Source: Bythopirellula goksoeyrii (GTDB taxonomy: Bacteria > Planctomycetota > Planctomycetia > Pirellulales > Lacipirellulaceae). Taken from it: a stretch of 64,000 nucleotides of DNA. The notes below the pieces were generated by a model, which did not search any database, had not been told where the DNA came from, and worked only from the letters and a program-made list of their open reading frames with translations. Made by a program: the position numbers and the translations under genes. The stretch is from positions 4,629,278 to 4,693,277 of the forward strand of contig NZ_CP042913.1 in the NCBI RefSeq assembly GCF_008065115.1, read 5' to 3'. Numbering within the stretch: the stretch's first letter is position 1; every line of letters starts with the position of its first letter. This document shows, in pieces, positions 4,432-28,955 of this stretch.

Positions 4432-5226
4432 ATGTACGGCTCTTTTGCGGATATTCATTGTCACCTGCTTCCTGGAATCGACGACGGCGCATCCGACTTG
4501 GAATCATCCATTGCGATGGCCCAGATGGCAGTTGCGGATGGTGTTCATACCATCGTAGTGACTCCGCATCAACTGGGTAATTTTTCGCGAAACCAAGGGG
4601 ACGACATTCGGCAGGAAACCATTCTTCTGCAAAGAGTGTTTGCAGAACGCCGCATCCCTCTGGAGATATTGCCTGGCGCCGATGTGCGAATTGAAGATGG
4701 GATGATCGAAAAACTCCTCAGCGGCGAGGTGCTTTCCCTGGGAGATCATCGGAGGCATGTGCTTTTAGAACTGCCCCACGAGTTGTATTTTCCCCTAGAA
4801 AAGGTTCTGCAATCGCTTGAGCGGGAAGGGATGACAGGGATCCTGTCACACCCCGAGCGAAATCAGGGAATTCTGCGCGATCCGAGTTTGCTCGAACCAC
4901 TCGTCGATCAGGGATGTTTGATGCAGGTCACGGCTGGGAGTTTGATGGGGACGTTTGGTTCCCGTAGCCAGGAACTAGCCGAATGGATGCTGGAACATGG
5001 ATTAGTACATTTCGTGGCAACGGATGCCCACGGCGTCAAAGCACGACGGCCCTTGATGAGTCGCGCCTATGACCGCATCGTCGAACTTGTTGGTGAAGCC
5101 GTTGCGGGAGATCTATGCACGATCAATCCCGAACTGGTTGCCTGTGGCAAACCCATTGAAGGTGGCGTGAGGGCAACACCTCGGCGTGGATGGTCAGGAT
5201 TCTTCTCCGCAAAAAAGGTTGGTTGA
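4432..5226 (+). CDS. CpsB/YwqE-type PHP-domain tyrosine-protein phosphatase
   Basis: A 264-residue PHP-fold protein. Metal-binding motifs: DIHCHLLPGIDDG at residues 8-19, TPH at 44-46, SHPERN near 141-146 and the late TDAHG. This pattern matches the Mn-dependent tyrosine phosphatases CpsB/CapC/YwqE that control bacterial tyrosine kinases in exopolysaccharide export. ATG 4432 starts the conserved domain; the 35 upstream in-frame codons cross the hairpin region and look non-coding. It overlaps the following gene by one base (TGATG), so the two are translationally coupled. No tyrosine kinase or capsule genes are in the window, so the substrate is unknown. Confidence 0.85.
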   Translation: MYGSFADIHCHLLPGIDDGASDLESSIAMAQMAVADGVHTIVVTPHQLGNFSRNQGDDIRQETILLQRVFAERRIPLEILPGADVRIEDGMIEKLLSGEVLSLGDHRRHVLLELPHELYFPLEKVLQSLEREGMTGILSHPERNQGILRDPSLLEPLVDQGCLMQVTAGSLMGTFGSRSQELAEWMLEHGLVHFVATDAHGVKARRPLMSRAYDRIVELVGEAVAGDLCTINPELVACGKPIEGGVRATPRRGWSGFFSAKKVG

Positions 5227-6026
5227 TGCCTGATTTTTCGCGGCGGATATTTCTGGCCGGTTGCGGCTCTGCGCTCTTTTTGCGGTGGGCTGTTCAGGCG
5301 GTCCCCTGCTCTGCGGCTCCACGATGGCAAGATTCTCGCAGCCACGGTCCTTTTCAACTGCAGGCAACTTTTCCGATGGGGGACCTTACCCCATTGTTTC
5401 AGGAACTTTCCTCGCTGGAGCTGGAATTGCAGCGGACTCTGGCAGTCCTACCTGAACAGAACCGTATTGACGTCTATTTATTGAGCGACCAAGAATCGCA
5501 CAAAGAGATTCTCTCCGAACTCTACCCCCGGGTGCCCTATCGTCGGGCTCTGTATGTGCAGCGAGGTGGTCAGTCGAGCGTTTACACCTACAAGAATCCC
5601 TCTTTGCCGGTAGATCTGCGACATGAATGTACCCATGCTTTGCTCCATGCAAGCCTACCGATGGTGCCGTTGTGGCTCGACGAAGGGCTGGCCGAGTATT
5701 TCGAGGTGCCGGCCGACGAGCGGGCGTTTGGCAATCCCCACATGGCTAAGCTGCGTTGGAATTTTCGTCTCGGAATGGTGCGGAGCATCGAGTCTCTAGA
5801 GTCATGTGGAGATCTCGAGTCCATGGGTGGCGTTGAGTATCGCTTTGCGTGGGCCTGGGTCCACTTCATGCTTCACGGACCGCTGGCGGCACACCGGGAG
5901 TTGGTCCATTTTCTATCGGACATCCGTCGAGGAAACCCGCCGGGGCAGTTATCAGAACGTCTCAAGGCAAAAATACCTGACCTGGAGAATCAGTTCATCG
6001 GGCATTTCAAGTCGTGGTCGAAGTAG
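5226..6026 (+). CDS. exported gluzincin-type zinc protease (DUF1570-like)
   Basis: A 266-residue protein. The N-terminus is SRRIFLAGCGSALFLRWAV: a twin-arginine-like SRRIFL followed by LAGC, so it could be a Tat-exported protein or a lipoprotein. The catalytic zinc motif HECTH is at residues 133-137 and the downstream glutamate ligand lies in LDEGLAEYFE (151-160), the spacing of gluzincin peptidases and of the DUF1570 family of planctomycetes. ATG 5226 overlaps the stop of the phosphatase gene, which argues for this start and for coupled expression. Substrate is unknown; cell-envelope protein processing is a guess from location. Confidence 0.75.
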   Translation: MPDFSRRIFLAGCGSALFLRWAVQAVPCSAAPRWQDSRSHGPFQLQATFPMGDLTPLFQELSSLELELQRTLAVLPEQNRIDVYLLSDQESHKEILSELYPRVPYRRALYVQRGGQSSVYTYKNPSLPVDLRHECTHALLHASLPMVPLWLDEGLAEYFEVPADERAFGNPHMAKLRWNFRLGMVRSIESLESCGDLESMGGVEYRFAWAWVHFMLHGPLAAHRELVHFLSDIRRGNPPGQLSERLKAKIPDLENQFIGHFKSWSK

Positions 6027-6320
6027 ATAGGAAACTTCATCCAGTTCAACGAAGTAAGAAAACCTCGACCGCTCTAGCGATGGCTTTGACAGCGGAGATA
6101 GCACTTTTGGCCGTTGTGCTATTTTTGTGAATTGTTATTTGAGAGAGTCCTACTCTCGAGCCGATAGGCCTAAGACATTGTGTCGCCAGTCCGCTAATTC
6201 GCCTGTTGAATTTGGTCGGGTGATCCGCGTTCGTGTGTTGTCGTTGGAGAGCCTGCCGCGTGGAGAGGTTCTCGAATCACCACCTAATCTCAACGCGCTT
6301 TTCTAAAACATGAGGGTGAT

Positions 6321-6878
6321 ATGAAAACCGAAACGAAGAGAGTATTGGCGGCTGCGCTGTGGACCTTAAGTGTCGTGGCATCACCTAGTGTACAGGCTGA
6401 TGTGACAGCAGTTCGTACACTCGATATATCGCTGCAAAATGGTGGCGTTCTGTCAGGGCAAGTGGCAGATGCCTCGGGTAATGCTCGATCGGGTGTCCCC
6501 GTTGCCGTCGTTGCAGGCGGCAAGGAGGTCGGTCGCACCATAACTGGCGATCAAGGCGAGTTTCAAATTGAAGGCCTCACTGGTGGCGTGGTAACTGTTG
6601 ACGCTGCAGGCACTCAGGGCAACTGTCGGCTGTGGGCTCCCGGCACGGCGCCTCCAGCAGCCCAGCAGGGATTGTTGGTGGTATCTCAAGATCCGGTTGC
6701 TCTTGGGCAGAACTGTGGCTCGCGAGTGGGTTGTGGAAGCGCAGTCTGTGGAGGAGGTCACGGCGGTGGTTTGCTGGGCTTGATGCTCGACCATCCCTTG
6801 GTGACAGCAGGCGTTATTGGGGCAGCAATCGCCATCCCGCTAGCACTCGACGACGATGATTCCCCTGCTACTCCGTAA
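6321..6878 (+). CDS. secreted CpRegD-fold protein with acidic PLALDDDD tail (copy 1)
   Basis: A 185-residue protein with a clear signal peptide (about 1-26, ending SVQA). Residues 38-95 look like a carboxypeptidase-regulatory-like beta-sandwich (GGVLSGQVADASGNARSGVP, then GEFQIEGLTGG). A conserved WAPGTAPP segment follows, then a Gly/Cys-rich linker (CGSRVGCGSAVCGGGHGGG), a hydrophobic helix GVIGAAIAIPLA and a DDDD-containing end. Shine-Dalgarno GAGGGTGAT stands before the ATG. The next gene is a paralogue with the same order of parts. The helix plus acidic tail may anchor the protein in the membrane with four cytoplasmic aspartates, which is inference. Function unknown. Confidence 0.8.
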   Translation: MKTETKRVLAAALWTLSVVASPSVQADVTAVRTLDISLQNGGVLSGQVADASGNARSGVPVAVVAGGKEVGRTITGDQGEFQIEGLTGGVVTVDAAGTQGNCRLWAPGTAPPAAQQGLLVVSQDPVALGQNCGSRVGCGSAVCGGGHGGGLLGLMLDHPLVTAGVIGAAIAIPLALDDDDSPATP

Positions 6879-7033
6879 GCAACGGTAGCTTTGAGTTGGC
6901 CTTCTCGAAGGTTGGTGAAATCGCTACGATCTGCCGCCTCTGTTGTAAATGGCGAGAGACGAGAATCACTAATTGGAGGACGTTCTCCAGTTTGCTCAAC
7001 GGCTCTTAGAGGGGTGGAAAGGGAAATCGATCG

Positions 7034-7606
7034 ATGCCGAGTTTTTGTTTTAAATCTTTCCAGAGGAAACTGTCCTGGGTGGCGAGCATCGCGCTGGTGG
7101 CTCAACCGCAACTCCTCATTGCCGCCGAATCGGCAACCAACGTACCGAATTCCAATACACATCCAGTGGCCGTGGCTCCTGCCGATGTGGCCTTGGCTGA
7201 CGGTGGTGTCGTGACTGGTCAGGTCGTCGATACTGCCGGTCAACCTCAGGCCAATGTGCCTGTCACACTGCATACCGGGGACAAAGATATTGCCCGGGTC
7301 CGCACCGATAAACAGGGCAACTTCCGCGTTGCCAGTCTTAAAGGTGGTGTCTATCACGTCGCAACCAACGGCAATGAAGGGGTTTATCGCTTCTGGTCGC
7401 CACGTACTGCCCCTCCAGGATCGCAAACGGGATTGAACCTGGTGTCGGGACGAAACGTCTATCGCGGCCAGGTCGGTGGAGGTTTCTTCACCTCGATGGG
7501 CCAGTGGGTCGCGGAGCATCCGATTATCACTGGTGCCGGAATCGCCGCAGCAATCGCGGTTCCTCTCGCACTGGATGACGATGACGATCCGCCAGCGAGC
7601 CCTTGA
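7034..7606 (+). CDS. secreted CpRegD-fold protein with acidic PLALDDDD tail (copy 2)
   Basis: A 190-residue paralogue of the preceding gene. It has a signal peptide (to about residue 31, LLIAAES), a beta-sandwich domain (DGGVVTGQVVDTAGQPQANV, then GNFRVASLKGG), the matching W-P-TAPP segment (FWSPRTAPPGSQTG), a hydrophobic helix GAGIAAAIAVPLA and a DDDDD end. It lacks the cysteine-rich linker of copy 1. The pair arose by tandem duplication. It ends 33 bases before a perfect terminator, so the two genes probably form one transcript. Function unknown. Confidence 0.8.
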   Translation: MPSFCFKSFQRKLSWVASIALVAQPQLLIAAESATNVPNSNTHPVAVAPADVALADGGVVTGQVVDTAGQPQANVPVTLHTGDKDIARVRTDKQGNFRVASLKGGVYHVATNGNEGVYRFWSPRTAPPGSQTGLNLVSGRNVYRGQVGGGFFTSMGQWVAEHPIITGAGIAAAIAVPLALDDDDDPPASP

Positions 7607-7639
7607 GCGTTTGCCGAGCGACTATTAGAAGTCACAATG

Positions 7640-7673
7640 AACCCGCGCGACATAATTGTCGCGCGGGTTTTTT
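7640..7673 (+). terminator. strong rho-independent terminator
   Basis: A perfect 13-bp stem, AACCCGCGCGACA / TGTCGCGCGGGTT, with loop TAAT and a run of T residues. It closes the transcript of the two tandem paralogues. Confidence 0.92.
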
Positions 7674-8000
7674 CGGGTTCTCGAAACGTTGGCGTACAGC
7701 ACACGGTAGCAAGATGCGCAAAGCCAACAATCTTTGCAAGATCCTGCGCACCAAGGCAGGAGTTTTGTCGTGGCCAATTTCTCGAAAACGGAAAAACAAA
7801 ATACAAAACTCGGCGATTGAATCTCGTTTCGCACTTGTTTTTCAGTGCTTTCCTGAAATGCGTGAATTAGTTTTGTAAATAAAATTCGGCTCCTCGCTGA
7901 CAAAACTCGCGCTGCTTCAAGCCGTCGAAGCGGCTGGTAACAATTTACGGATCTCTAGCCGCGACGTACCAACTTCGCAGCCGGGCACACCGACCTGTTA

Positions 8001-8062
8001 TTCAATTGTCAAGGAACTTGCCTACAGGATGGCAGGTTCCATTATCTTGATCCGCAATTGAA
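8001..8062. repeat. nested inverted repeat
   Basis: Three nested complementary arm pairs: TTCAATTG (8001-8008) with CAATTGAA (8055-8062), TCAAG (8009-8013) with CTTGA (8046-8050), and GGAACTTGCC (8013-8022) with GGCAGGTTCC (8031-8040, one G-T). The middle and inner pairs share one base. There is no T-run and no adjacent gene. It could be an insertion-sequence end, a structured RNA or a decayed palindromic element. Confidence 0.55.
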
Positions 8063-8252
8063 TTTCCACCAGAATTTTTGGGCCACACCAAAAACAACCG
8101 CAAAGCGACATTTGGCAAGCCGCGAACGTTAGTGACTGGATAGAGTCCAGAAACCGTGGGCACTATTGGCAACGGGGTCCAATAGTTTCACCAACCCTAT
8201 GCGGGAAAGAGCTTGCCTCAGTTTGCTGTGTTGTAGTAGGACAAGGGAGAAC

Positions 8253-8294
8253 AAGGGGACGCAGCTCATTTGTGGAAATGAGCTGCGTCCCCTT
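8253..8294. repeat. perfect 19-bp REP-like hairpin
   Basis: AAGGGGACGCAGCTCATTT, loop GTGG, and its exact reverse complement. Size and symmetry fit a repetitive extragenic palindrome of the kind mobilised by REP-associated tyrosine transposases. A ten-base piece of the same sequence (AAGGGGACGC) recurs at 9300-9309 exactly where the IS3 remnant changes into the second transposase. No tyrosine transposase gene is in the window. Confidence 0.7.
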
Positions 8295-8380
8295 TCTCTT
8301 CTCAATGCGGCGCCGCTGCAATATTCCTATCAAGACCCTTCGTATGGCGCAGACCGACAATCCCGCGACCATGGCTTTAC

Positions 8381-8587
8381 TCAGTGGGTATATTCCTCAA
8401 GTGCCGACGCACAACTGCTTACGAACATTAAACCCGACCCGGCAATAAATAACCACACGCCAAAGTGTGTCGTGCCAGGCCATAAGAAAAGCACGCTTCC
8501 TAGAAAAAACAGAAAATTGCCGAAGACCCCCTCGGCAACGAAAAACCAACGGTACCGATCAAAAAATCGACGGATGAATCGCTTCAT
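8381..8587 (-). CDS. small YrhK-like membrane protein
   Basis: A 68-residue protein with a basic N-terminus (KRFIRRFFDRYRW) and two hydrophobic segments. The pattern VFGNFLFFLGSVLFLW followed by GVWLFIAGSGLMFV matches the YrhK domain, where two GSxLF-type repeats form a membrane hairpin. The function of the family is not known. It sits alone between the hairpin elements and the transposase remnants, and no Shine-Dalgarno stands out. Called on amino-acid pattern; small size keeps confidence moderate. Confidence 0.6.
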   Translation of the reverse strand: MKRFIRRFFDRYRWFFVAEGVFGNFLFFLGSVLFLWPGTTHFGVWLFIAGSGLMFVSSCASALEEYTH

Positions 8588-8749
8588 GTGTGGGAGGTCC
8601 TTGAACTAGAATCATCTATTACACTTCCTGGGTAGTCTATCAATTCTTGGCACGCTCCACAGCAGATAGACAGGAAAGAATCATGTCTATTGAATTTCTG
8701 CACCAAACTTTGACAGAGGCTGTCCCTTCCATGGAAATCGCTTCTACGA

Positions 8750-9325
8750 TTACAAAAAAGGGTTCTTTCGTAGTTTTAACGGGTGAGTCTTAGAGTTGAG
8801 GGCCTGGTGGATCCTTTTCAAGTTATAGAACGTTTCGATGTACTTGAAGACGCGGTATTTCGCTTCCTCGATGTCTTCGAAGCAATCGAACTTGGTCCAT
8901 TCATGCTTGAGAGACCAGAAGAAACGTTCCATTACGGCATTGTCATAGCAAGTTGCTGTGCGACTCATTGAACAGGTGATACCTAGCGAGTGAAGCGTCG
9001 TTTGGAAGGCGTCACTTGTATATTGGCAGCCACGATCACTGTGGATCATCAATTGCGCACCATATGGTCGACGCGATTCAATTGCATCTTGCAGGGCGCG
9101 GCTTACCAAAGAAGTCTTGAGAGTCCGGTCGAGAGTCCAGCCAACGACCTTTCGGCTAAACAAATCGAGTACCACAGCCAAGTAAACCCAACCACATTCA
9201 GTCGGTTAATACGTGATCTCAGTAACCCATTTACGATTCGGAGCGGCGGCTGAGAATTCGCGATCGAGTAGGTTAGCAGCTGGCTGCTTGAGGGGGATTA
9301 AGGGGACGCCGTCAGCGGGTTCCGT
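8750..9325 (-). pseudogene. IS3-family transposase OrfB remnant, nonsense mutated and 5'-truncated
   Basis: Reading on the minus strand gives NLLDREFSAAAPNRKWVTEI, TY, an in-frame TAA (9206-9208), then PTECGWVYLAVVLDLFSRKV and onward through HSDRGCQYTSDAF and ERFFWSLKHEW to the end of an IS3 OrfB integrase core. The rve-type catalytic residues (first D in VVLDLFS, second in HSDRG, glutamate in MERFF) remain. The stop codon splits the frame, and everything upstream of about 9300 (the rest of OrfB and all of OrfA) is missing and replaced by another transposase in the opposite direction. It cannot make an active transposase. Confidence 0.88.
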
Positions 9326-19464: not shown

Positions 19465-20654
19465 TTGTGCACCTCGATTGCAGCATTGAGAGGAGAGTTG
19501 CTAGACCCTTTGCAGTCTGGGCCTATTTCGAAGGCAACTTGTAGAACCTTCGCTCGAAGATGGCAAGACCAATCCTGATTTTCTTGCCGGATGCCAGCAG
19601 ACATTTGCGATTATTTTAGGCAGTTATTGGCCCCGGCTCGACACGGCTGAATCAGGGATGCCACTGAGTCGCTCGTCTAGTCCGTGTCTAACCCGTGCAA
19701 GTCAGCGGCTAATCTCTATTCTTTTTATCGTCACTTTTATGAGTACCTAGAAAATAACCCGTAGTACGGATAAGGCATGCTATTTGCACTTCTTCGATTG
19801 CTCGCCTACCTTAGAGCAAGGGGCCGTTGATGCAGCGTTCTGGTATGGCGTTTGCTATTCCACATTGCCGGAGAAATTTTCCCCACACTACTCTTTTTCG
19901 GAGTAGAATTAATCTGTATAAGTCGTCGCTCGCTTGGCATTTCCACTGAAGTGCGGAACTAGCAACTACCGATTTCCCTTTAGCGTTCACACCGCGTAAC
20001 ATAGCAAACAAGCCTCCGCTTCGTGCGGAGATAAGGAGCCAAACTTCTCGGTCATAATTCCGTCGGGAGGACCAATTTTTTGGATAGGCCCGCGTCAAAT
20101 AAAAGGCAGTGCGCAGCACTGTCCGACACGCGCCTTTCTTCCAGCGACTCCACACCGTCGCAATTCGGCCGGAAGTTTGATTTTAGAAAAGGTCGGGGTC
20201 ATGCACTCGTGCAGGCCCCGGCCTTTTTGTGTTTATGCCCGATTGTGTCTAGCCGCAACCCACAGCAACCCACAGTAACGCGTTCAGGGCACGTCGCACC
20301 CAGCAGCGTTATGCGCGACCAGCGGTCGCGGCTTTCTAGTTGGATCCTTTTGGCAGTCGAGAAACCCGCCAGCAGGAGTGCCTAAACTCTTGACATGCCC
20401 ATGAGTATTGTATGAGGCCACACGTTTGATGAAATGTTAGCCATGGATCAACGCGGATCTACTCGAATTTGATCCCAGACCTCCGTTATGTCCGTGTTTC
20501 ATCCGTGAAAACCCTGGCCTTATGAACAGATTATTCGCACCACGGGAAAAATCACAAGAGAGCTGTTCTGCTCTTGGGCACCAGTTTGCTATGCTACTGG
20601 CTCGCGGTTGGGTAATTTGGCTCAGTCGCTGCTGTTTTCTGAGGGAGTGCGTTG
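19465..20654. other. 1.2-kb gene-poor stretch with RNA-like hairpins
   Basis: There is no convincing protein gene. It contains a hairpin CTCCGC/GCGGAG (about 20011-20027), a hairpin CAGTGC/GCACTG (20107-20121), a strong terminator-like structure at 20187-20228, a palindrome GCGACC/GGTCGC (about 20307-20322), and degenerate ATCCGTG/GGATCAACG words near 20440-20515. A minus-strand frame of 114 codons at 19811-20155 lacks any family feature. The strand and existence of an RNA gene upstream of the terminator are open. Confidence 0.4.
20187..20228 (+). terminator. strong intrinsic terminator without an upstream gene
   Basis: Outer stem AAAAGGTCGGGG / CCCCGGCCTTTTT (one G-T pair), inner stem TGCAC/GTGCA around TC, followed by T5. 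A shorter T-run exists on the other strand, so it could work both ways. No protein gene ends before it on the plus strand within 1.8 kb. Confidence 0.6.
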
Positions 20655-23564
20655 ATGCGACATTCATGGATTTATGGTCTTCTCTGGCTGCCTTGGTTTT
20701 GTGGCGCGATTCATGGCGAGACGGGTTTCGATCCTCCCACTTCGTTCGGCAAGCCGAGCCCCCTGCCCTTGCCTGGTTCTTTGAACGTAGCGGACTATGA
20801 ACAGCAGTTGTTCGAGTTTCTCAACAGAAGGCATTACAAGGCACTCGGTTGGTTTTACGACAAACGGGTGCGCGATACGGGGCCGTATCTCAACGGCAAA
20901 TATTATGGCACCCACCCGGCGGTTTCGATCTACTATTCGCCGGAAATTATTGACTGGCTCGTTGCAGGAAAGCAGGATGCGATTCCCGATGGGGCGATGA
21001 TCATCAAGGAGCAATACGAGCCACCGGCTGCTCGTTATGAAGGGCTGGATGATGATGAGTTGTTCGCGCATCTGTCGAGTTGGACTGTGATGGTCAAGGA
21101 CGCCAAGAGTTCCCATGACGGTTGGTTCTGGAGTAACCCAGCCAAGGATCAGCAGGTAGTCGACAACCATCAATATCCGTTTGATCATCCGATCTCGGGG
21201 TTTGGTATCTATTGCGTCCGCTGCCATGCTTCCACACAAACGAAAGGCGCGACGAACGAGTTCACTTTTGCCTCGCTTCGTAACATCAAAGGCTTCCCTG
21301 GGGAGCCGCTATTATTTCGTGTCGATGATTCCTGGCGCAAGGTGACCGATCACGAGGAACCGGTGGGGGCAGAGATCCCGGAGGATGAGAGCAACGCTGG
21401 GCTGCTTGTCGGAGTAGAGCAATTGGCTGCCGATACTTCGCATCCCCGATGTAGCAACTCACCGCATCCGGAACTTTGCCAGCCGGCGCTGAGTCAAGAA
21501 TTCTTAACGCTCTTCCCAAGTATTGCAGCGCGAACACGAGATCAAGTGCTGTACTTCCCGCCGGTGACCCACGACTGGGTGGTTCGTCGCCCGAGTTCTG
21601 AACAGCAAACGCAACCTTTCGTAACTTCCAATCAATGTATGAGTTGTCATGCTGGACTCATGGAACCCTTCGGGCCGACGATGTTTGTTCCCACGGGGGA
21701 GCATGCCGAATACGGTTCGGAGGGGGTGCACCTCTCGCCCTATGGGGAATGGCGCTGGACGCCGATGGGTTTGGCGGGGCGCGATCCGATTTTTCATGCC
21801 CAGCTCGAAAGCGAGATCGAGTTGATGCGCGAAGATTTCGCCGACGATCCGGAGCAAGCAAAAATTCATGTCGACAATCTCGTTGAAACCTGCCTCACCT
21901 GCCATGGTGCGATGGGGAAGCACCAGTTCACGCTCGACCATGGTAATTCCTCGGGGCATTTCGGCATGGAACATGTAATGCTCGCATCGAACGACCCACA
22001 GTCTCAAAGCGACAAGGACTGGCACTACGGCGCGCTAGCCCGCGATGGCATCAGTTGTACGATCTGCCATCAAATGCAGCCGCGCGAGCAGCCGGCAGAC
22101 GACCATCGGCATTACTTAGAGTTTTTCCTGGAAACCTCGATTACCGGCAATATTCATGTGGGCAACGCCAATGAACTGCATGGCCCCTTCAAGGATGAAG
22201 AGATTTCGCCGTATTCCATGGAGCATGCGCTGGGATTCAAGCCAAAATTCAATCCGTACATCAAACAGTCTCAGATGTGTGGAACCTGTCATGTGGTAAA
22301 TCTGCCCATTGTGGACAAGCCGTTGGCTGAGGGTGAAGAGCCTGACGAACTGATCGCTGCCGAACAGAATCCTCTGTTCAAGAAATATAGTCATCATGTG
22401 GAACAGGCAACCTACTTGGAATGGCTCAACAGCGAGTTTGAAAACGAGTTCAATCCAGACAACCCGCAGGCCCAAACGTGTCAAGATTGTCACATGGCAC
22501 GTGACTATCACAATGACGATTTGGATCTGCATCTGGAGAACATCGAAACTCGTATCGCTGCGATTCAGGACGACACGTTTCCCGACGCGGAGAACTTGGT
22601 CGATCAGAAGGAGCTCAAGATTCGCCATCGCAAGGAGGGCTACTCTCGACACAACTTCCGCGGGCTAAATGTATTCCTCCTGGAGATGTTCAATCAATTC
22701 GACGACGTGCTGGGTGTACGCAAGTACGATTTCATGACCGGGTCGACCGAGGACATCCCGCACGCGATTGCCGACTTTGTTCATCAGGCCCGCAATGATG
22801 TGGCGACGCTTACCGTCGAGGCATCTCTCGAAGGCAAGGAGCTTGTGGCAACGGTTGATGTGCAGAATAAGGTGGGACATCGATTCCCTAGCGGCGTTGG
22901 ATTCCGCCGAGCATTTATCGAATTGCTGGTGGTCGAGAAACCAGGCAGCACCAAGGAGCAGATTGTTTGGTCGTCGGGCCGCACGAATGAACTGGGCGTA
23001 TTGGTCGATGCTGAGGGCAAACCGCTCTCTTCAGAGTTCTTTGCGGAACACCCAACCGAGAATACCCAGATATGCCAGCATCATCATGAGGTGATTACCT
23101 CACCTGAACAGGTGCAGATCTATGAGACGCTGCTGCACAGTGGTAAGCATAAATACACGACGAGTTTTATCCACGGCTCCGATGTCATCAAAGACAACCG
23201 GCTGCTCCCCCGCGGCTGGAAAGCAGAGGGACCGGGGCCCGCGCTGCGAGGGGAGTTTCTCAAAGCGACCCACCCCGGCCCCATGGCAAAGAAAGATCCT
23301 CGCTATACCGACGGCAGCGGATCGGACGAGGTGGTTTACCGCATCAAGCTACCCGCCGACATCAACCGCAAGCAACTGGAAGTGCGCGCCAAGTTGTATT
23401 ATCAGGCGATTCCCCCTTATTTCTTACAGAGCTTGTTTGAAACGGCACCCAATGGTCCTGCTACGCAGCGTTTGCACTATATCTGCAGCAATATCGACCT
23501 GAGTGGAACGCCCATCGAAAACTGGAAGTTAGAAGTCACGTCTGCCAAAGCGAAGGTTGAGTAG
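20655..23564 (+). CDS. hexahaem c-type cytochrome with P460-like N-terminal region
   Basis: A 969-residue exported protein. The signal peptide is residues 1-20 (HSWIYGLLWLPWFCGAIHG). Six CxxCH haem sites start at residues 187, 328, 413, 468, 542 and 609. Residues 60-120 (GWFYDKRVRDTG ... YYGTHPAVSIYYSPE ... IPDGAMIIKEQY) resemble cytochrome P460-type domains. The C-terminal 280 residues have no haem site and look like a beta domain. ATG 20655 with GAGGGAG 8-14 bases upstream was taken rather than TTG 20652. It is a periplasmic electron carrier or oxidoreductase; the substrate is not evident. It is a single gene; no quinol oxidase or other cytochrome gene is beside it. Confidence 0.88.
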   Translation: MRHSWIYGLLWLPWFCGAIHGETGFDPPTSFGKPSPLPLPGSLNVADYEQQLFEFLNRRHYKALGWFYDKRVRDTGPYLNGKYYGTHPAVSIYYSPEIIDWLVAGKQDAIPDGAMIIKEQYEPPAARYEGLDDDELFAHLSSWTVMVKDAKSSHDGWFWSNPAKDQQVVDNHQYPFDHPISGFGIYCVRCHASTQTKGATNEFTFASLRNIKGFPGEPLLFRVDDSWRKVTDHEEPVGAEIPEDESNAGLLVGVEQLAADTSHPRCSNSPHPELCQPALSQEFLTLFPSIAARTRDQVLYFPPVTHDWVVRRPSSEQQTQPFVTSNQCMSCHAGLMEPFGPTMFVPTGEHAEYGSEGVHLSPYGEWRWTPMGLAGRDPIFHAQLESEIELMREDFADDPEQAKIHVDNLVETCLTCHGAMGKHQFTLDHGNSSGHFGMEHVMLASNDPQSQSDKDWHYGALARDGISCTICHQMQPREQPADDHRHYLEFFLETSITGNIHVGNANELHGPFKDEEISPYSMEHALGFKPKFNPYIKQSQMCGTCHVVNLPIVDKPLAEGEEPDELIAAEQNPLFKKYSHHVEQATYLEWLNSEFENEFNPDNPQAQTCQDCHMARDYHNDDLDLHLENIETRIAAIQDDTFPDAENLVDQKELKIRHRKEGYSRHNFRGLNVFLLEMFNQFDDVLGVRKYDFMTGSTEDIPHAIADFVHQARNDVATLTVEASLEGKELVATVDVQNKVGHRFPSGVGFRRAFIELLVVEKPGSTKEQIVWSSGRTNELGVLVDAEGKPLSSEFFAEHPTENTQICQHHHEVITSPEQVQIYETLLHSGKHKYTTSFIHGSDVIKDNRLLPRGWKAEGPGPALRGEFLKATHPGPMAKKDPRYTDGSGSDEVVYRIKLPADINRKQLEVRAKLYYQAIPPYFLQSLFETAPNGPATQRLHYICSNIDLSGTPIENWKLEVTSAKAKVE

Positions 23565-23655: not shown

Positions 23656-24630
23656 ATGCACAACTCTGATTCGGCCACGACGCTAGTCGATCTCGAGCCC
23701 AGTTCCAAGCAGTTTCTCTCCGAGGTGATAGAGGGCCTGAAAGCCACTCCCAAGCGATTGCCCTGCAAATATTTTTATGACGAGCGGGGCTCGCAACTGT
23801 TTGATCAGATCTGTTTACTTGAGGAATACTATCTTACTCGTTGTGAAGATCAGATCATCAAAGAGTTTGCTCAAGAGATGGCCGACCAGATTGGTCCTGG
23901 AGTGATGCTGGTGGAGTATGGAAGCGGTAGCAGCACCAAAACACGTGCTCTACTGGATAGACTTGCCGACCCAGTCGCCTATGTGCCCGTCGACATTTCG
24001 CGCGAGCATCTGGCTGCTACTGCGGCTCAGCTCTCAGAGGCCTATCCTCACATTGAAGTCTTGCCTGTCTGTGCAGATTTTACTGAAGCTTTTACTCTGC
24101 CAGAATCTCGGCGAGAGCCGACTCATAGCGCAGTGTTTTTCCCCGGTTCGACGATAGGCAACTTTGAACCCTCTGCGGCGCGGGCCATGCTTTCCCAAAT
24201 TGCTGAGCTTTGTGGACGTGGAGGTGGCTTGCTGATTGGTATCGACTTGCAGAAAGATATTTCCGTGATTGAAGCGGCCTACAACGACGCTCGTGGTGTA
24301 ACGGCCGACTTCAATAGGAATCTGCTTGAACGGATCAATCGTGAGCTGGCAGGAGAATTTGACATCAACCAATTTCGCCACAGGGCTGTCTATGATGATC
24401 TTGAGGAGCGTGTCGAGATCTCCTTGGTTAGTTGTTCTCGGCAACGAGTTACCATTGGCGATCAATCGTTCCGATTTGACGAAGGAGAGTCGATCATCAC
24501 AGAACATTCGCATAAATACACGATTGTGGGTTTCGCGAAGTTGGCTGCTCAAGTGGGTTTAACCCTTCGGCGCTCGTGGACCGACCCACAAGAGCGTTTT
24601 GCAGTGTTGCACCTTGCCTTATTGGATTAG
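23656..24630 (+). CDS. egtD: L-histidine N-alpha-methyltransferase EgtD
   Basis: A 324-residue cytoplasmic methyltransferase. The family signature KYFYDERGSQLFDQICLLEE followed by YYLTRCE is at residues 38-64, and the SAM-binding glycine loop VEYGSGSSTKTRALLD is at 86-101. VFFPGSTIGNF and the late segment SVIEAAYNDARGVTADFNRN complete the EgtD pattern, and the length equals the family norm (about 320). EgtD trimethylates histidine to hercynine, the first step of ergothioneine synthesis. It is the first gene of a tight cluster: the next gene starts 8 bases later and egtB is fourth. No EgtA, EgtC or EgtE is in the window. Confidence 0.93.
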   Translation: MHNSDSATTLVDLEPSSKQFLSEVIEGLKATPKRLPCKYFYDERGSQLFDQICLLEEYYLTRCEDQIIKEFAQEMADQIGPGVMLVEYGSGSSTKTRALLDRLADPVAYVPVDISREHLAATAAQLSEAYPHIEVLPVCADFTEAFTLPESRREPTHSAVFFPGSTIGNFEPSAARAMLSQIAELCGRGGGLLIGIDLQKDISVIEAAYNDARGVTADFNRNLLERINRELAGEFDINQFRHRAVYDDLEERVEISLVSCSRQRVTIGDQSFRFDEGESIITEHSHKYTIVGFAKLAAQVGLTLRRSWTDPQERFAVLHLALLD

Positions 24631-24638
24631 GACCCAGC

Positions 24639-25370
24639 ATGATCCATTTGCAATGTGTCACGAAGAAATTTGGCTCACATACGGCTGTGGACGGGATTGA
24701 TCTGGATTGTCCGACGGGGAAGACACAGGTCTTGATTGGAACCAGTGGGTGTGGGAAATCCACTTTGTTGCGGATGATGGTTGGGCTGGTGAAACCCGAT
24801 TCTGGTTCGGTTCTTTTTGACAATGAGCCGCTGTTGGAAAAGAACCTCGAGACAATACGACGAAGAATAGGTTACATGATTCAGGAAGGTGGATTGTTTC
24901 CTCATCTCACGGCAAGGGACAATGCAGCGATCATGCCTCGCTATCTAGGCTGGGATTCGACGCGAACGGAAGCTCGACTCCAGGAACTACTCGAACTAAC
25001 GCAACTTCCCGCCACACTGTTGGACCGCTTTCCCCGGCAACTCTCTGGAGGACAACGCCAGCGAGTTAGTTTGATGCGAGCCCTGATGTTGGACCCCGAC
25101 GTCTTGTTGCTGGATGAACCGTTGGGAGATCTCGACCCCATGATCCGCGCCGAATTGCAGCAGGATTTGCGCACGATCTTCCGTGAGCTTGATAAGACCG
25201 TGGTGTTGGTAACCCACGACCTAGGTGAAGCAGGTTTTTTGGGAGATACGATCACGTTGCTGCGAGCAGGTAGAATCGTGCAGCAAGGTTCCTTCGAAGA
25301 GTTATTGGAAAATCCGGTAGACGACTTTGCTTCGAAGTTTGTCCAAGCCCAACGGCAAGTGTTTGCATGA
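24639..25370 (+). CDS. ABC transporter ATPase, quaternary-amine (OpuCA/EgtV) type
   Basis: A 243-residue ATPase. Walker A GTSGCGKST is at 34-42, the Q-loop near YMIQEGG at 79-85, signature LSGGQRQR at 135-142 and Walker B VLLLDEP at 155-161, with the H-loop in VLVTHD. It lacks the C-terminal CBS domains of OpuA/OpuC, as EgtV and OsmV-type short forms do. ATG 24639 begins the conserved domain; the 21 upstream in-frame codons overlap egtD. It overlaps the fused transporter gene by four bases (ATGA). Its place between egtD and egtB suggests that it powers transport of ergothioneine, hercynine or a related betaine. Confidence 0.9.
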   Translation: MIHLQCVTKKFGSHTAVDGIDLDCPTGKTQVLIGTSGCGKSTLLRMMVGLVKPDSGSVLFDNEPLLEKNLETIRRRIGYMIQEGGLFPHLTARDNAAIMPRYLGWDSTRTEARLQELLELTQLPATLLDRFPRQLSGGQRQRVSLMRALMLDPDVLLLDEPLGDLDPMIRAELQQDLRTIFRELDKTVVLVTHDLGEAGFLGDTITLLRAGRIVQQGSFEELLENPVDDFASKFVQAQRQVFA

Positions 25371-26911
25371 AACGTGCCCTGTTAATATGTCTCATGTTGC
25401 TCCTGGTGGCCGTGTTTCCGCGCAGATCGAAGTTGTCTGGCGTGAGGGTAGGTTCCAAGAAGTTTACGGAGTCGGTCATATTGGGGGAGATTCTTACACA
25501 ACTCATCCGCTCAACGGGTCAACGTGCCAGCCATTTGTCTGAATTGGGGGGGACTACACTGGTATTCGACGCGCTGCGCCGAGGGGAGATCGACTTGTAT
25601 CCTGAATACACCGGCACGCTGATCGAAGAAATATTTTCAGGCTCGGACGCTAAAGACTTGGAAGATCTCTCGGTCTTATTGGAACAGCAAGGGGTTCTCA
25701 TCAGCAAACCGTTGGGCTTCAACAATAGCTATGCTCTGGCAGTCAACCGAGAGACCGCAGAAAAATACAATCTGGCCACGATCGCCGATCTGGCAGCCCA
25801 TGATAATTTGCGAATGGGGTTCAGCAATGAGTTTCTTGATCGCAAGGATGGTTGGAAGAATCTTCGCAAGCAATATGGCCTGCCCCAAGAAGAGGTCACG
25901 GGTTTAGACCATGACCTCGCGTATCGACAGCTCGAGTCAGGCGTCATCGACGTGATGGATGTCTACACGACCGATGCGCGCTTGGTGGGAATGGATCTCG
26001 TGCTGTTGGAGGATAACCGCTCCTACTTCCCGCGTTATGATGCGGTGGTGTTGTTTCGCTCTGACCTATCCGAGCGATTTCCTGAAGTCCCTCCACTGAT
26101 TGCAAAATTAGAATCACAGATCACTGCAGAAGAGATTCTCGATCTCAATGCGCAGGTGGAAACGGGTAAGATCCGCGAGCCGCAAGTGGCGGCTGATTTC
26201 TTGCTCGACCAGTTTTCGCTGGATGTGGAAGTTGCTGATCCTTCGGTGGCCAGCCAGATCTGGCAGCGTACTCTGGAACACTGCGATCTAGTACGCCGGT
26301 CGCTGATCCCGGCGATTTTTGCAGCGATTCCATTGGGGATTCTGGCGGCAAAGCGGCCCAAGTTGGGACAAGTGATTCTTGGCATAGTTGGTATCGTACA
26401 AACGATTCCTGCTCTGGCACTTCTGGTGTTGCTGATCGCCCCGGTTGCTTATCTGGGGCTTGGCACGCTGGGGGCGGGTTCAGCAACTGCGATAGTCGCT
26501 TTGTTTCTCTATAGTTTGCTCCCCATCGTGCGAAACACAGCTACAGGCTTGGCCGCAATCTCGCCAGAGTATGCTGAGTCGGCCACAGCCTTGGGGCTCT
26601 CGCCCATTTTTCGCCTGCTGCATATTGAATTGCCACTGGCGTCTCCTTCGATTCTGGCTGGCATCAAGACCGCTGCGATCCTAAACGTAGGCTTTGCTAC
26701 GCTGGGTGCCCTCGTGGGTGCGCGGGGGTATGGTCAGCCGATCCTGACAGGCATACGTTTAAACGACACAGGTCTGATCATGCAGGGGGCGATTCCGGCA
26801 GCCTGTATGGCGATTCTCTTGCAAGTTTTTTTTGAAGTGGGAGAACGGTGGTTTGTCCCCACCGGTCTGCAACCACTGTCTGTGAGCTCCAACGATGTCG
26901 AACCAAACTGA
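25367..26911 (+). CDS. fused substrate-binding protein and permease, OpuC/EgtU type
   Basis: A 514-residue fusion. Residues 1-20 are a signal/anchor helix. About 25-290 form an OpuAC-type binding domain (VGSKKFTESVILGEILTQLI, DLYPEYTGTLIEEIF, LDHDLAYRQLESGVIDVMDV, DAVVLFRSDL). About 305-500 form the permease domain with several membrane helices and the EAA loop SPEYAESATALGLSPIF. Known EgtU proteins of Firmicutes and Helicobacter are also permease/binding fusions specific for ergothioneine; to my recollection they carry the permease first, whereas here the binding domain is first. It overlaps the ATPase gene by 4 bases and egtB by 17. The specificity is inferred from the operon. Confidence 0.88.
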   Translation: MKRALLICLMLLLVAVFPRRSKLSGVRVGSKKFTESVILGEILTQLIRSTGQRASHLSELGGTTLVFDALRRGEIDLYPEYTGTLIEEIFSGSDAKDLEDLSVLLEQQGVLISKPLGFNNSYALAVNRETAEKYNLATIADLAAHDNLRMGFSNEFLDRKDGWKNLRKQYGLPQEEVTGLDHDLAYRQLESGVIDVMDVYTTDARLVGMDLVLLEDNRSYFPRYDAVVLFRSDLSERFPEVPPLIAKLESQITAEEILDLNAQVETGKIREPQVAADFLLDQFSLDVEVADPSVASQIWQRTLEHCDLVRRSLIPAIFAAIPLGILAAKRPKLGQVILGIVGIVQTIPALALLVLLIAPVAYLGLGTLGAGSATAIVALFLYSLLPIVRNTATGLAAISPEYAESATALGLSPIFRLLHIELPLASPSILAGIKTAAILNVGFATLGALVGARGYGQPILTGIRLNDTGLIMQGAIPAACMAILLQVFFEVGERWFVPTGLQPLSVSSNDVEPN

Positions 26912-28178
26912 AACCGTATCTATCCCTACGAATCTTGCTAAGCGTTTCGCGGCAGTGCGGCTCTTTACGGAACAAATATGCGAAACACTTCAGGCTGAAG
27001 ATTGTTGTATCCAGTCGATGCCGGATGCCAGTCCTATTCGGTGGCACCTAGCTCATACGACTTGGTTCTTCGAGACGTTTCTACTGAAGGCAGATCCCAG
27101 CTATCGAGTGTTCGATGACCACTACGAAGTCTTGTTCAACTCGTATTACAATGCGGTCGGAGAACAATTCCCTCGTGCCTTGCGAGGGATGCTGTCGCGA
27201 CCTACGGTTGCTCAGGTTTACGACTATCGGCACAAAGTAGACCAATGCGTTGCAGATTGGTTTACAAATGGACGGATCGAGGCGGATCCTCAGCTCGCGC
27301 GAGTGGTTGAATTGGGACTGAACCACGAGCAGCAACATCAGGAGTTGATTCTCACGGATGTGAAGCATCTCTTTTCCTTGAATCCACTGCTGCCTACTTT
27401 CCGCACCGGCACACAGCCATCTACCACGAATGTGACCTCAGAATGTGACTGGATCGATTTTGAGGAAGGTCAGCACAGAATCGGCAATGCCGGTGAAGGT
27501 TTTTCCTACGACAATGAAAGTCCGCTACATCGTGTGTTTTTGGAATCGTTTGCGATTGCCAGTCGTCCGGTGACCAGCGGCGAGTTTCTGAAGTTTATCA
27601 CAGACGATGGCTATTCTCGCCCAGAGTATTGGCTATCCGAAGGGTGGCGACAGGTGCAAGACCGCGGTTGGCGGCATCCGCAGTATTGGTATCAGGAATG
27701 TGGTGAATGGCAGGAATTTACGTTGGCTGGTCTACGCCTGCTCGATCCTTCTGCACCAGTTGCCCATGTCAGTTACTTCGAGGCAGACGCTTATGCCCGT
27801 TGGGCAGGTGCGCGTCTTCCAACCGAGGCGGAATGGGAAGTGGCTGCCGAGGAGGTTCCCATCGAAGGAAACTTTGCTGACTCGCTCTTGGCCGCAGGAC
27901 AAGCGATCCATCCCAGTAGTCGCATCGACGAGAAAGGACCACTCGATCACCTGTTCGGCGATGTGTGGGAATGGACCGCCAGTCAGTATACGGCCTACCC
28001 GGGTTATCAGCCTCCGCCCGGTGCCTTGGGTGAGTACAACGGCAAGTTCATGTGCAATCAGTTCGTACTGCGCGGCGGATCGTGCGCGACATCATCGGAT
28101 CATATCCGTCGCACCTATCGCAATTTTTTCCCACCAGAGGCACGGTGGCAGTTTTCGGGGTTTCGATTGGCGCGGTAG
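26895..28178 (+). CDS. egtB: ergothioneine synthase EgtB (sulfoxide synthase)
   Basis: A 427-residue non-haem iron enzyme. The N-terminal DinB-like domain supplies iron ligands in RWHLAHTTWFFE (residues 49-60) and NHEQQHQE (143-150). The C-terminal FGE-sulfatase domain (about 185-427) shows RPVTSGEFLKF, RLPTEAEWEVAAE, GDVWEWTASQY and the closing FVLRGGSCATSSDHIRRTYR. EgtB joins hercynine to cysteine or gamma-glutamylcysteine with oxygen. The ATG lies inside the end of the transporter gene, so it is translationally coupled. With egtD four genes upstream only the C-S lyase step (EgtE) is missing locally. Confidence 0.94.
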   Translation: MSNQTETVSIPTNLAKRFAAVRLFTEQICETLQAEDCCIQSMPDASPIRWHLAHTTWFFETFLLKADPSYRVFDDHYEVLFNSYYNAVGEQFPRALRGMLSRPTVAQVYDYRHKVDQCVADWFTNGRIEADPQLARVVELGLNHEQQHQELILTDVKHLFSLNPLLPTFRTGTQPSTTNVTSECDWIDFEEGQHRIGNAGEGFSYDNESPLHRVFLESFAIASRPVTSGEFLKFITDDGYSRPEYWLSEGWRQVQDRGWRHPQYWYQECGEWQEFTLAGLRLLDPSAPVAHVSYFEADAYARWAGARLPTEAEWEVAAEEVPIEGNFADSLLAAGQAIHPSSRIDEKGPLDHLFGDVWEWTASQYTAYPGYQPPPGALGEYNGKFMCNQFVLRGGSCATSSDHIRRTYRNFFPPEARWQFSGFRLAR

Positions 28179-28247: not shown

Positions 28248-28955
28248 TCATTGAGTAGTCCCGCCTCGTTTCTGGTAGGTCTCCATGATCTTTGAGGGAT
28301 GGGCTGCGATGATGCCTTCTTTGCGGAGTTTGTCCACTACGTCGGCTCCGAGGATTCCTTGTACTTTCATGTGCAGTTGGGGGGAATTTTCGAACAAGGT
28401 TCGTAGTTTTTCCACGGGCCAAGAGAGATACTCTGTCGGAAGAACGGTGACCACCCTCGCACTGGCGACTTGTTCTGTCAAGAATCCCATCTCACCAACG
28501 AATTGGTGTGAAACAACTTCGGCGACCGATCGACCATCGACTTCGATGCGGCCCCGGCCATTGGCAATCAGTAATAATTCAGAAACGGGTTGGTCTTGCT
28601 GCATCAAGACTTCTCCCTCTCTGGCTTTTTTCCATTCAGCGACGGACAAGAGTTTAGTGAACTCCCGTGGTTGGAGTGAACGGAAAATCGTTCTATAGAG
28701 CCGTAATTCTTCCTCTCCTAGGAAAACAGGACGTCGCTCCAAGATCAACAATCCGATCTGAAATAGGTTTACGGCAATGAAAATCGACTGCCAGGCAATC
28801 GGTTCGTACAAAGGAGTCGCACTACAGCAGAAATAGTAGGGCAAGAGGCAGAACATCGCGGCCACCATCAATATCCGGAGCCAGAGCACATCGCGGACCG
28901 AATAGGCGACGAGATAAAGGATGTTCCCCAGATGGAGCAGATTGGTCATGGTCAT
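28248..28955 (-). CDS. membrane protein with Popeye-like helices and a cyclic-nucleotide-binding domain
   Basis: A 235-residue protein. Three hydrophobic segments lie in residues 4-72 (LHLGNILYLVAYSVRDVLWL, a middle helix RILMVAAMFCLLPYYF, then SIFIAVNLFQIGLLIL). Residues 95-190 form a cNMP-binding beta barrel (LQPREFTKLLSV, MQQDQPVSELLLIANGRGRI, VGEMGFLTEQVASARVVTV). The layout matches the bacterial Popeye-domain proteins, small membrane-bound cAMP-sensor-like proteins. The phosphate-binding cassette reads VGEMGFLTEQVASARV, close to the GExALL...PRxA consensus but with A in place of the arginine-preceding P. It converges with egtB, with a 69-base gap. Ligand and partner are unknown. Confidence 0.82.
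   Translation of the reverse strand: MTMTNLLHLGNILYLVAYSVRDVLWLRILMVAAMFCLLPYYFCCSATPLYEPIAWQSIFIAVNLFQIGLLILERRPVFLGEEELRLYRTIFRSLQPREFTKLLSVAEWKKAREGEVLMQQDQPVSELLLIANGRGRIEVDGRSVAEVVSHQFVGEMGFLTEQVASARVVTVLPTEYLSWPVEKLRTLFENSPQLHMKVQGILGADVVDKLRKEGIIAAHPSKIMETYQKRGGTTQ

Follow-up and report, generated by a model that had tools for sequence, protein, structure and literature searches.

An ergothioneine biosynthesis operon of Bythopirellula goksoeyrii encloses a binding-domain-first OpuC-type transporter, a candidate importer coupled to synthesis

The ergothioneine importers covered by the literature consulted here belong to bacteria that acquire the compound from outside and do not synthesize it. 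Among them, EgtU/EgtV of Streptococcus pneumoniae has a substrate-binding domain that, according to the available text of PMC9732360, forms a cage with N339, Y341, Y419, Y443 and F293, holds the carboxylate of the ligand with K242, T296 and R379, and places E375 at the ring. In the same text, G244, and F293 with Y337, separate EgtU from AfProX, a glycine-betaine/proline-betaine binder, and the replacement G244F cuts the affinity of EgtU about 100-fold. Here we analyse an operon from the planctomycete Bythopirellula goksoeyrii, located in a window of 64,000 nucleotides (contig NZ_CP042913.1, positions 4,629,278 to 4,693,277 of the forward strand; positions below are counted from the first letter of the window), in which an ATP-binding cassette (ABC) ATPase of OpuC/EgtV type and a fused binding-protein/permease are encoded between the ergothioneine biosynthesis genes egtD and egtB.

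The four genes lie on the plus strand and follow each other with junctions of +8 (egtD/ATPase), −4 (ATPase/fusion) and −17 bases (fusion/egtB); re-derivation of the open reading frames returned the junctions and gene positions of the first-pass annotation, which had been made from the sequence alone. Junctions, common strand and curated models bear out its proposal of a single operon, and the families of the genes bear out its proposal of a cell that both makes (EgtD and EgtB) and moves the compound. Both enzymes exceed their NCBI equivalogue cut-offs, EgtD with 407 bits against 290.9 for TIGR03438 and EgtB with 576 bits against 360 for TIGR03440; EgtB stays under the cut-off of the SenA model NF041186 (360 against 420 bits). 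Pfam places OpuAC at residues 26-279 of the fusion and BPD_transp_1 at residues 320-498, so that, as had been annotated, the order is reversed with respect to S. pneumoniae EgtU, where the transmembrane domain precedes the substrate-binding domain. The AlphaFold model, computed with 42 sequences (mean pLDDT 91.2, pTM 0.81), consists of an N-terminal helix, a two-lobed α/β binding domain and the permease helices. The ATPase gives an ABC domain and weak AAA matches in Pfam, and a Walker B motif is present too. In the genome (6.47 Mb, one contig) this fusion is the sole OpuAC match and this EgtD the sole PF10017 match. A promoter and terminator scan of the operon gave no signal clearly exceeding shuffled sequences. 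Two other species of the genus keep the complete egtD-ATPase-fusion-egtB order (fusion identity 88% and 70%), and hence the four-gene arrangement is not due to chance.

With a probability of roughly 60%, we propose that the transporter is an importer coupled to ergothioneine synthesis that recaptures ergothioneine for the producer. The operon, the gene families, the fold, a recurrent linkage to biosynthesis genes and a co-occurrence with EgtD are computational observations; ligand, direction of transport, retention role and lyase are what we infer. In the model, EgtD would trimethylate histidine to hercynine, EgtB would use oxygen to join cysteine to hercynine, and an unlinked pyridoxal phosphate (PLP)-dependent lyase would complete ergothioneine. 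Together, the ATPase and the fusion of binding domain and permease would build a type I ABC importer. Its periplasmic domain is predicted to hold a trimethylammonium carboxylate by means of a tyrosine cage, with K31 and R159 anchoring the carboxylate and E155 serving the ring. Ergothioneine made in the cytoplasm may leak or be released, be bound in the periplasm and be pumped back; the same pump may take ergothioneine from neighbours or the surroundings, and in relatives probably selenoneine. The producer would in this way retain and salvage a costly antioxidant (three S-adenosylmethionine per molecule). Import is the established direction of binding-protein-dependent ABC systems such as this one, and the closest relatives that have been studied are uptake systems too; export of ergothioneine or its secretion for neighbours, which the first-pass annotation had considered, is thus very improbable, even if active secretion by an ergothioneine producer has been suggested, with no exporter known, in the available text of PMC12689799.

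Co-occurrence with EgtD was analysed in 199 genomes drawn from the phylum, searched with the fusion, EgtB and EgtD, counting as full-length fusion a single match of at least 300 bits (including one match with an in-frame TGA, in genome G066; labels G, L and f denote our genomes, loci and families). A full-length fusion is present in 25 genomes from 15 families. EgtD is over its cut-off in 23 of these 25 genomes and in 23 of the 174 without the fusion (Fisher p 2.5e-15, uncorrected for relatedness), and EgtB in 15 of 25 against 16 of 174. As to the two exceptions, G058 carries EgtD in two pieces on two contigs and G071 gives trivial EgtD matches only. Fusion and EgtD are also present or absent jointly within some families: with and without the fusion, respectively, EgtD is found in 4/4 and 0/4 genomes of f45, 3/3 and 0/6 of f4, and 3/3 and 0/1 of f6. 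Among 39 near relatives, EgtD accompanies the full-length fusion in 8/8 genomes and occurs in 6/31 without it; egtD adjoins the transporter in five of those eight, namely in the window's genome, in the two congeners with the complete gene order, and in two other members of the order, where egtD converges on an egtB-ATPase-fusion row. The association therefore recurs in relatives, in these five genomes as well as in 29 of the best 80 named loci described below, and a separation of the egt genes from the transporter in all relatives, which the first-pass annotation had named as decisive against its reading, is not observed. As a different explanation, the transporter could import osmolytes in the manner of ProX/OpuC, either glycine betaine and proline betaine or a broad range, and be co-regulated with the genes of ergothioneine synthesis, for instance as part of a common stress response. 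Such an osmolyte importer would leave unexplained both the co-occurrence and the joint presence and absence within families.

The same linkage is found far beyond the phylum. From a scan of 84,980 species genomes the best 80 named fusion loci were taken with up to 8 kb of flank, and egtD (tblastn) lies within the fetched flank in the 29 mentioned above. Of these linked loci, 25 also hold egtB, MES or a SenA/EgtB-like gene, and 19 have a biosynthetic gene next to the transporter in the same orientation, with at most 350 bp between match ends. By record title they belong to nine phylum-level groups (Planctomycetota, Pseudomonadota, Acidobacteriota, Verrucomicrobiota, Thermodesulfobacteriota, Dadabacteria, Ignavibacteria, Tectomicrobia and Methylomirabilis). 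The gene orders differ between loci (egtB-egtD-ATPase-fusion, ATPase-fusion-egtD-egtB, ATPase-fusion-egtB-egtD and others); therefore the linkage is not one inherited block. The remaining 51 loci are unlinked, and in the 49 of their genomes that were searched (L171 and L145 were left out) EgtD is over the cut-off in 38, with a truncated copy in G213, against a baseline of 40/200 in a Pseudomonadota draw. In that draw a fusion match of at least 300 bits occurs in one genome, the chosen centre, and other OpuC-type homologues do not track EgtD (9/35 versus 30/164, p 0.35, centre excluded). Neither this recurrence nor the contrast with other OpuC homologues would be accounted for by an osmolyte importer.

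In a tree of 117 binding domains, built by a quick method without bootstrap and leaving out L070, L156, L068 and L058 (partial or unrelated domains) and L139 (no alignment row), 78 named loci and 15 planctomycete fusions (that of the window among them) group in a single branch (93 rows, SH-aLRT 99), throughout which linked and EgtD-bearing rows are scattered. Both EgtU references fall outside this branch, the H. pylori EgtU on a long branch whose placing is unsure. Another 17 phylum genomes have a homologue other than a single full-length fusion match, with EgtD in 6/17; one of them, G118, really has a binding-domain-first fusion that the search had split. In three of the 17, permease-first or partial versions adjoin egtD, namely in L056 (ATPase-permease-binding domain-egtB-egtD), L058 (egtD-ATPase-permease-binding domain) and L057. 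In the tree, L056, L057 and L061, the latter from an EgtD-bearing genome, branch separately, in the company of two rows whose genomes lack EgtD; the pathway thus seems to have recruited a transporter of different construction as well.

Several of the scanned loci have features of their own. A divergent EgtD paralogue (30-33% identity, under the cut-off) is placed directly 5′ of the ATPase and fusion in L046 (6752-7627, plus strand) and L049 (11980-12930, minus strand), whose genomes also carry a standard EgtD; the substrate of the paralogue may be another amino acid. In L097 (5704-7154, plus) and L103 (1851-3246, plus), metagenome-assembled genomes (MAGs) from different phyla by title, the stretch between egtD and the transporter encodes a DUF427 protein and a DUF6596/TPR protein, one of each kind having been scanned. 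L165, a MAG contig titled Bordetella parapertussis, probably wrongly, carries the fusion, egtD and a SenA-like gene.

The partner enzyme next to EgtD and the transporter varies, being the oxygen-dependent EgtB, the oxygen-independent MES or the selenoneine synthase SenA (with SenB). EgtD and the transporter are constant whatever the partner, which points to a substrate of trimethylhistidine type: these settings have in common the product of EgtD and its thione or selenone, and share neither the oxygen chemistry nor the source of sulfur. In f45 the four fusion-bearing genomes give only partial EgtB matches (FGE domain) and yet have EgtD; full-length MES matches are found near egtD in exactly these four of its eight genomes, although transporter and egtD are not adjacent there. 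L096, from Candidatus Scalindua, an anammox genus, has ATPase-fusion-egtD-MES in one stretch, and its MES and EgtD are so close to those of G088 (90% and 82% identical) that f45 is taken as anammox-type. MES is likely encoded beside egtD in the anammox-type planctomycetes L072 (4430-7837, minus), L075 (3364-6783, plus) and L096 (11166-14531, plus). Such gene content suggests that some anammox bacteria may make ergothioneine without oxygen. The literature search found no paper joining ergothioneine and anammox, and the available text of the MES paper (PMC9516567) does not mention anammox, Kuenenia or Planctomyc-.

SenA joins a selenosugar to hercynine according to the available text of PMC10891094. 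EgtB-like genes over the SenA cut-off occur in L098, L102, L161 and L032, and SenB over its own cut-off in L102, L139 and L032, so that L032 and L102 have both near egtD and the transporter. The SenA-like genes of L139, L058 and L165 are just under the cut-off (400-414 against 420), and those of L127, L133, L077, L084, L085 and L090 are under the EgtB, SenA and OvoA cut-offs. The closest homologue of the window fusion in the phylum draw (57% identity) sits in L032, where egtD, a methionine-synthase-like gene, senB and senA lie in a row (4461-8917, minus) facing the transporter, a planctomycete selenoneine cluster; in L161, too, a methionine-synthase-like gene is placed between egtD and senA.

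Hercynine is the precursor common to the three partner pathways (for SenA, in the available text of PMC10891094), and hence an importer of hercynine (trimethylhistidine), salvaging the intermediate for EgtB, MES or SenA, was also considered. Such an importer should give rise to genomes that combine the fusion with EgtB or MES and lack EgtD, whereas import of finished ergothioneine would not require them; among the ten fusion-bearing genomes without any EgtD match, none has EgtB over the cut-off or a full-length MES, the two nearly full-length EgtB-like matches being OvoA. Most of these ten are draft MAGs and absence in them is soft; an eleventh genome without EgtD over the cut-off, G213, has EgtB in addition to its truncated EgtD. 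Moreover, in the available text of PMC9732360, the affinity of S. pneumoniae EgtU for hercynine is some 2000-fold below that for ergothioneine. We consequently rejected hercynine salvage as the main role and regard a hercynine importer as rather improbable, and the hercynine exchange mentioned in the first-pass annotation finds no support. The two OvoA genes (ovothiol pathway) are located at L194:1510-2724 and L195:1501-2850, both on the minus strand. Three of the ten genomes are of Bdellovibrio type by title (L112, L144 and L154); speculatively, uptake from prey would make sense for them.

Returning to an ergothioneine importer, the binding domain of the window keeps the cage and anchors of EgtU, with N120, Y122, Y200, Y224, K31, T84, R159 and E155 in place of N339, Y341, Y419, Y443, K242, T296, R379 and E375, respectively. 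The glycine invariant at EgtU position 244 is not found; F33 occupies the position, and Y81 and F118 replace F293 and Y337, a pair that H. pylori EgtU lacks as well. Thus, in the comparison with EgtU structures proposed by the first-pass annotation, cage and anchors agree and the three discriminating marks do not. K31, F33, Y81, F118, Y122, E155, R159, Y200 and Y224 are invariant in a 42-row alignment that includes 41 of the best 80 named loci (L114, with an in-frame stop, was left out), and not all of them are so in a 23-row alignment from which L011 and L017 were left out (in-frame TGA in the G066 fusion). Position 419 is Tyr or Trp in 26/28 domains from EgtD-bearing genomes (G058 included) and Phe in 8/9 from EgtD-lacking ones. 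The use of pocket residues as a ligand assay was discarded, since no other position differs between the groups, the difference at 419 tracks the tree, and H. pylori EgtU itself carries Phe at this position. With the family profile, S. pneumoniae EgtU scores 237 bits (variants 238-241), AfProX 230 and H. pylori EgtU 224.

A number of observations weigh against the proposed importer. F33, Y81 and F118 are of the AfProX kind at all three discriminating positions (AfProX being taken from published positions, not aligned here). The pocket is nearly the same in other OpuC-type domains, from planctomycetes that lack EgtD, and its residues therefore do not identify the ligand. A fusion homologue (E ≤ 1e-20) is present in 29 of the 46 EgtD-bearing phylum genomes and missing in 17; producers, then, do not need the transporter. 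The transporter is often far from egtD, with EgtD over the cut-off in the fetched stretch in only 8/25 phylum genomes (G000, G158, G029, G095, G034, G002, G025 and G179). Families f11, f43 and f61 also include EgtD-bearing genomes without the full-length fusion, f57 has the fusion without EgtD, and seven genomes of f26 have EgtD and no homologue. Finally, EgtD over the cut-off is missing from 11 of the 78 named fusion-bearing genomes and from G071. The pocket also speaks for an osmolyte importer, together with the best-named NCBIfam relatives of the transporter, OsmF and choline permease, both far under their cut-offs (94/400 and 85/363 bits), and with a genome that has no other OpuAC domain to do that job. 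OpuA/OpuC osmotic ATPases carry a CBS domain, and Pfam finds none on the ATPase of the window. Taking this together with the distribution of EgtD, an osmolyte importer is in our estimation unlikely. A glycine-betaine pocket, which would have spoken against the first-pass annotation, is on paper nearly what is present in view of the AfProX residues; its force is blunted by H. pylori EgtU, with two of the three same residues. Taken alone, the residues would indicate a betaine-type ligand and the genome context ergothioneine, selenoneine or hercynine.

Membership in the dedicated EgtU family, also annotated, does not hold: the three replaced residues published as its marks and the fusion order rule it out for the S. 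pneumoniae type. A broader possibility, to which we give an even chance, is a distinct and widespread family of binding-domain-first importers coupled to trimethylhistidine chalcogen synthesis, be the sulfur or selenium put in by EgtB, MES or SenA; its members would bind ergothioneine or selenoneine, and producers would recapture their product with them; since its AfProX-like pocket is unlike that of EgtU, ergothioneine recognition would then have arisen more than once in the OpuC family.

The nearest solved relatives of the window EgtB are 6o6l (EgtB Cabther), 6qki and 8qf6 (E about 1e-146), near-identical in the printed alignments, and 4x8b (Sulfoxide synthase EgtB), which we take to be the mycobacterial enzyme, is far more remote (E 2e-39). 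The Chloracidobacterium EgtB prefers cysteine and the mycobacterial one gamma-Glu-Cys, according to the available part of a review (PMC10903977). By its sequence, the window enzyme is nearest to the cysteine-using type of Chloracidobacterium (C. thermophilum), for which no glutamylcysteine branch would be needed. The absence of that branch from the window, correctly noted in the first-pass annotation, is therefore expected, and we dropped it as a puzzle. A C-S lyase gene is not in the operon; the rest of the genome was not searched for one. In two Xanthomonas loci, L118 (9909-11246, minus) and L120 (5725-6915, minus), a gene weakly resembling SufS (a PLP-dependent cysteine desulfurase) stands between the transporter and egtB, a position that fits an EgtE-type C-S lyase.

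The features of the operon are collected in Table 1. Just 5′ of egtD (20652-23564, plus) a protein of 970 residues is encoded that has many CxxCH motifs and whose N-terminus resembles cytochrome P460, and convergent to the operon (28248-28955, minus) lies a gene for a protein with a Popeye (POPDC) domain and a cyclic-nucleotide-binding domain, in a bacterium. There is no sign that either of these two genes is a member of the operon.

Table 1. Genes, domains and predicted ligand pocket of the operon, in window positions.
Feature	Position	Strand	Remarks
egtD, histidine N-alpha-trimethyltransferase (product hercynine)	23656-24630	+	324 aa; TIGR03438, PF10017; 7scf/4pim relatives
ABC transporter ATPase, OpuC/EgtV type	24639-25370	+	243 aa; Walker A GTSGCGKST, LSGGQ, LLLDEP
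Fused substrate-binding domain/permease, binding domain first	25367-26911	+	514 aa; Pfam OpuAC then BPD_transp_1; AlphaFold
Substrate-binding domain of fusion (residues 26-279)	25442-26203	+	residues mapped to S. pneumoniae EgtU numbering
Predicted pocket of fusion			K31, K32, F33, T63, Y81, T84, F118, N120, Y122, E155, R159, Y200, Y224
Permease domain of fusion (residues 298-496)	26258-26854	+	
egtB, iron-dependent sulfoxide synthase, nearest Chloracidobacterium (cysteine-using) enzyme	26895-28178	+	427 aa; TIGR03440

That the transporter is coupled with synthesis across nine phylum-level groups implies that producers lose the compound and retrieve it, in settings that span anammox-type anaerobes, selenoneine clusters and aerobic ergothioneine operons. 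The transporter would provide a genetic handle on the role of ergothioneine in free-living bacteria, anaerobes included, and would change the annotation of OpuC-type 'glycine betaine' transporters; leakage and re-uptake may also set the yield of fermentative ergothioneine production. A literature search of partial coverage (EgtU; ergothioneine with planctomycete and with Xanthomonas) found no description of this transporter in a biosynthesis cluster.

Compared with known systems, the anammox-type genomes share with the MES system (PMC9516567) the two-module enzyme beside egtD and add this transporter family, whereas the available text of that paper names no dedicated bacterial transporter for MES. 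L032 and L102 resemble the senA-senB cluster (PMC10891094), which in its available text is described as SenA, SenB and SenC with no mention of a transporter. The likeness to AfProX (available text of PMC9732360) lies in Phe, Tyr and Phe at the three discriminating positions, and the difference in that no tie of AfProX to ergothioneine genes is described there. The nearest structure to the binding domain is H. pylori EgtU, unbound in 8dp6 (36% identity, TM-score 0.88 on the target) and solved with ergothioneine in 8dp7, which shares with the window Tyr and Phe at positions 293 and 337 and differs in having Ser instead of Phe at 244, Asp instead of Glu at 375 and Phe instead of Tyr at 419. Hence, of the three EgtU/AfProX marks only position 244 separates it from the window domain. 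We know of no ergothioneine biosynthesis genes in H. pylori, and AfProX is a separate binding protein. S. pneumoniae and other Firmicutes EgtU/EgtV have the same OpuC-type ATPase and fused permease/binding protein, with a binding domain about 33-34% identical, and the window transporter likely works like EgtU. In EgtU the permease comes first and G244, F293 and Y337 line the discriminating positions, whereas here the order is reversed and the residues are F33, Y81 and F118; and its bacteria are treated in the available text (PMC9732360) as non-makers taking up ergothioneine, whereas here the biosynthesis genes adjoin the transporter.

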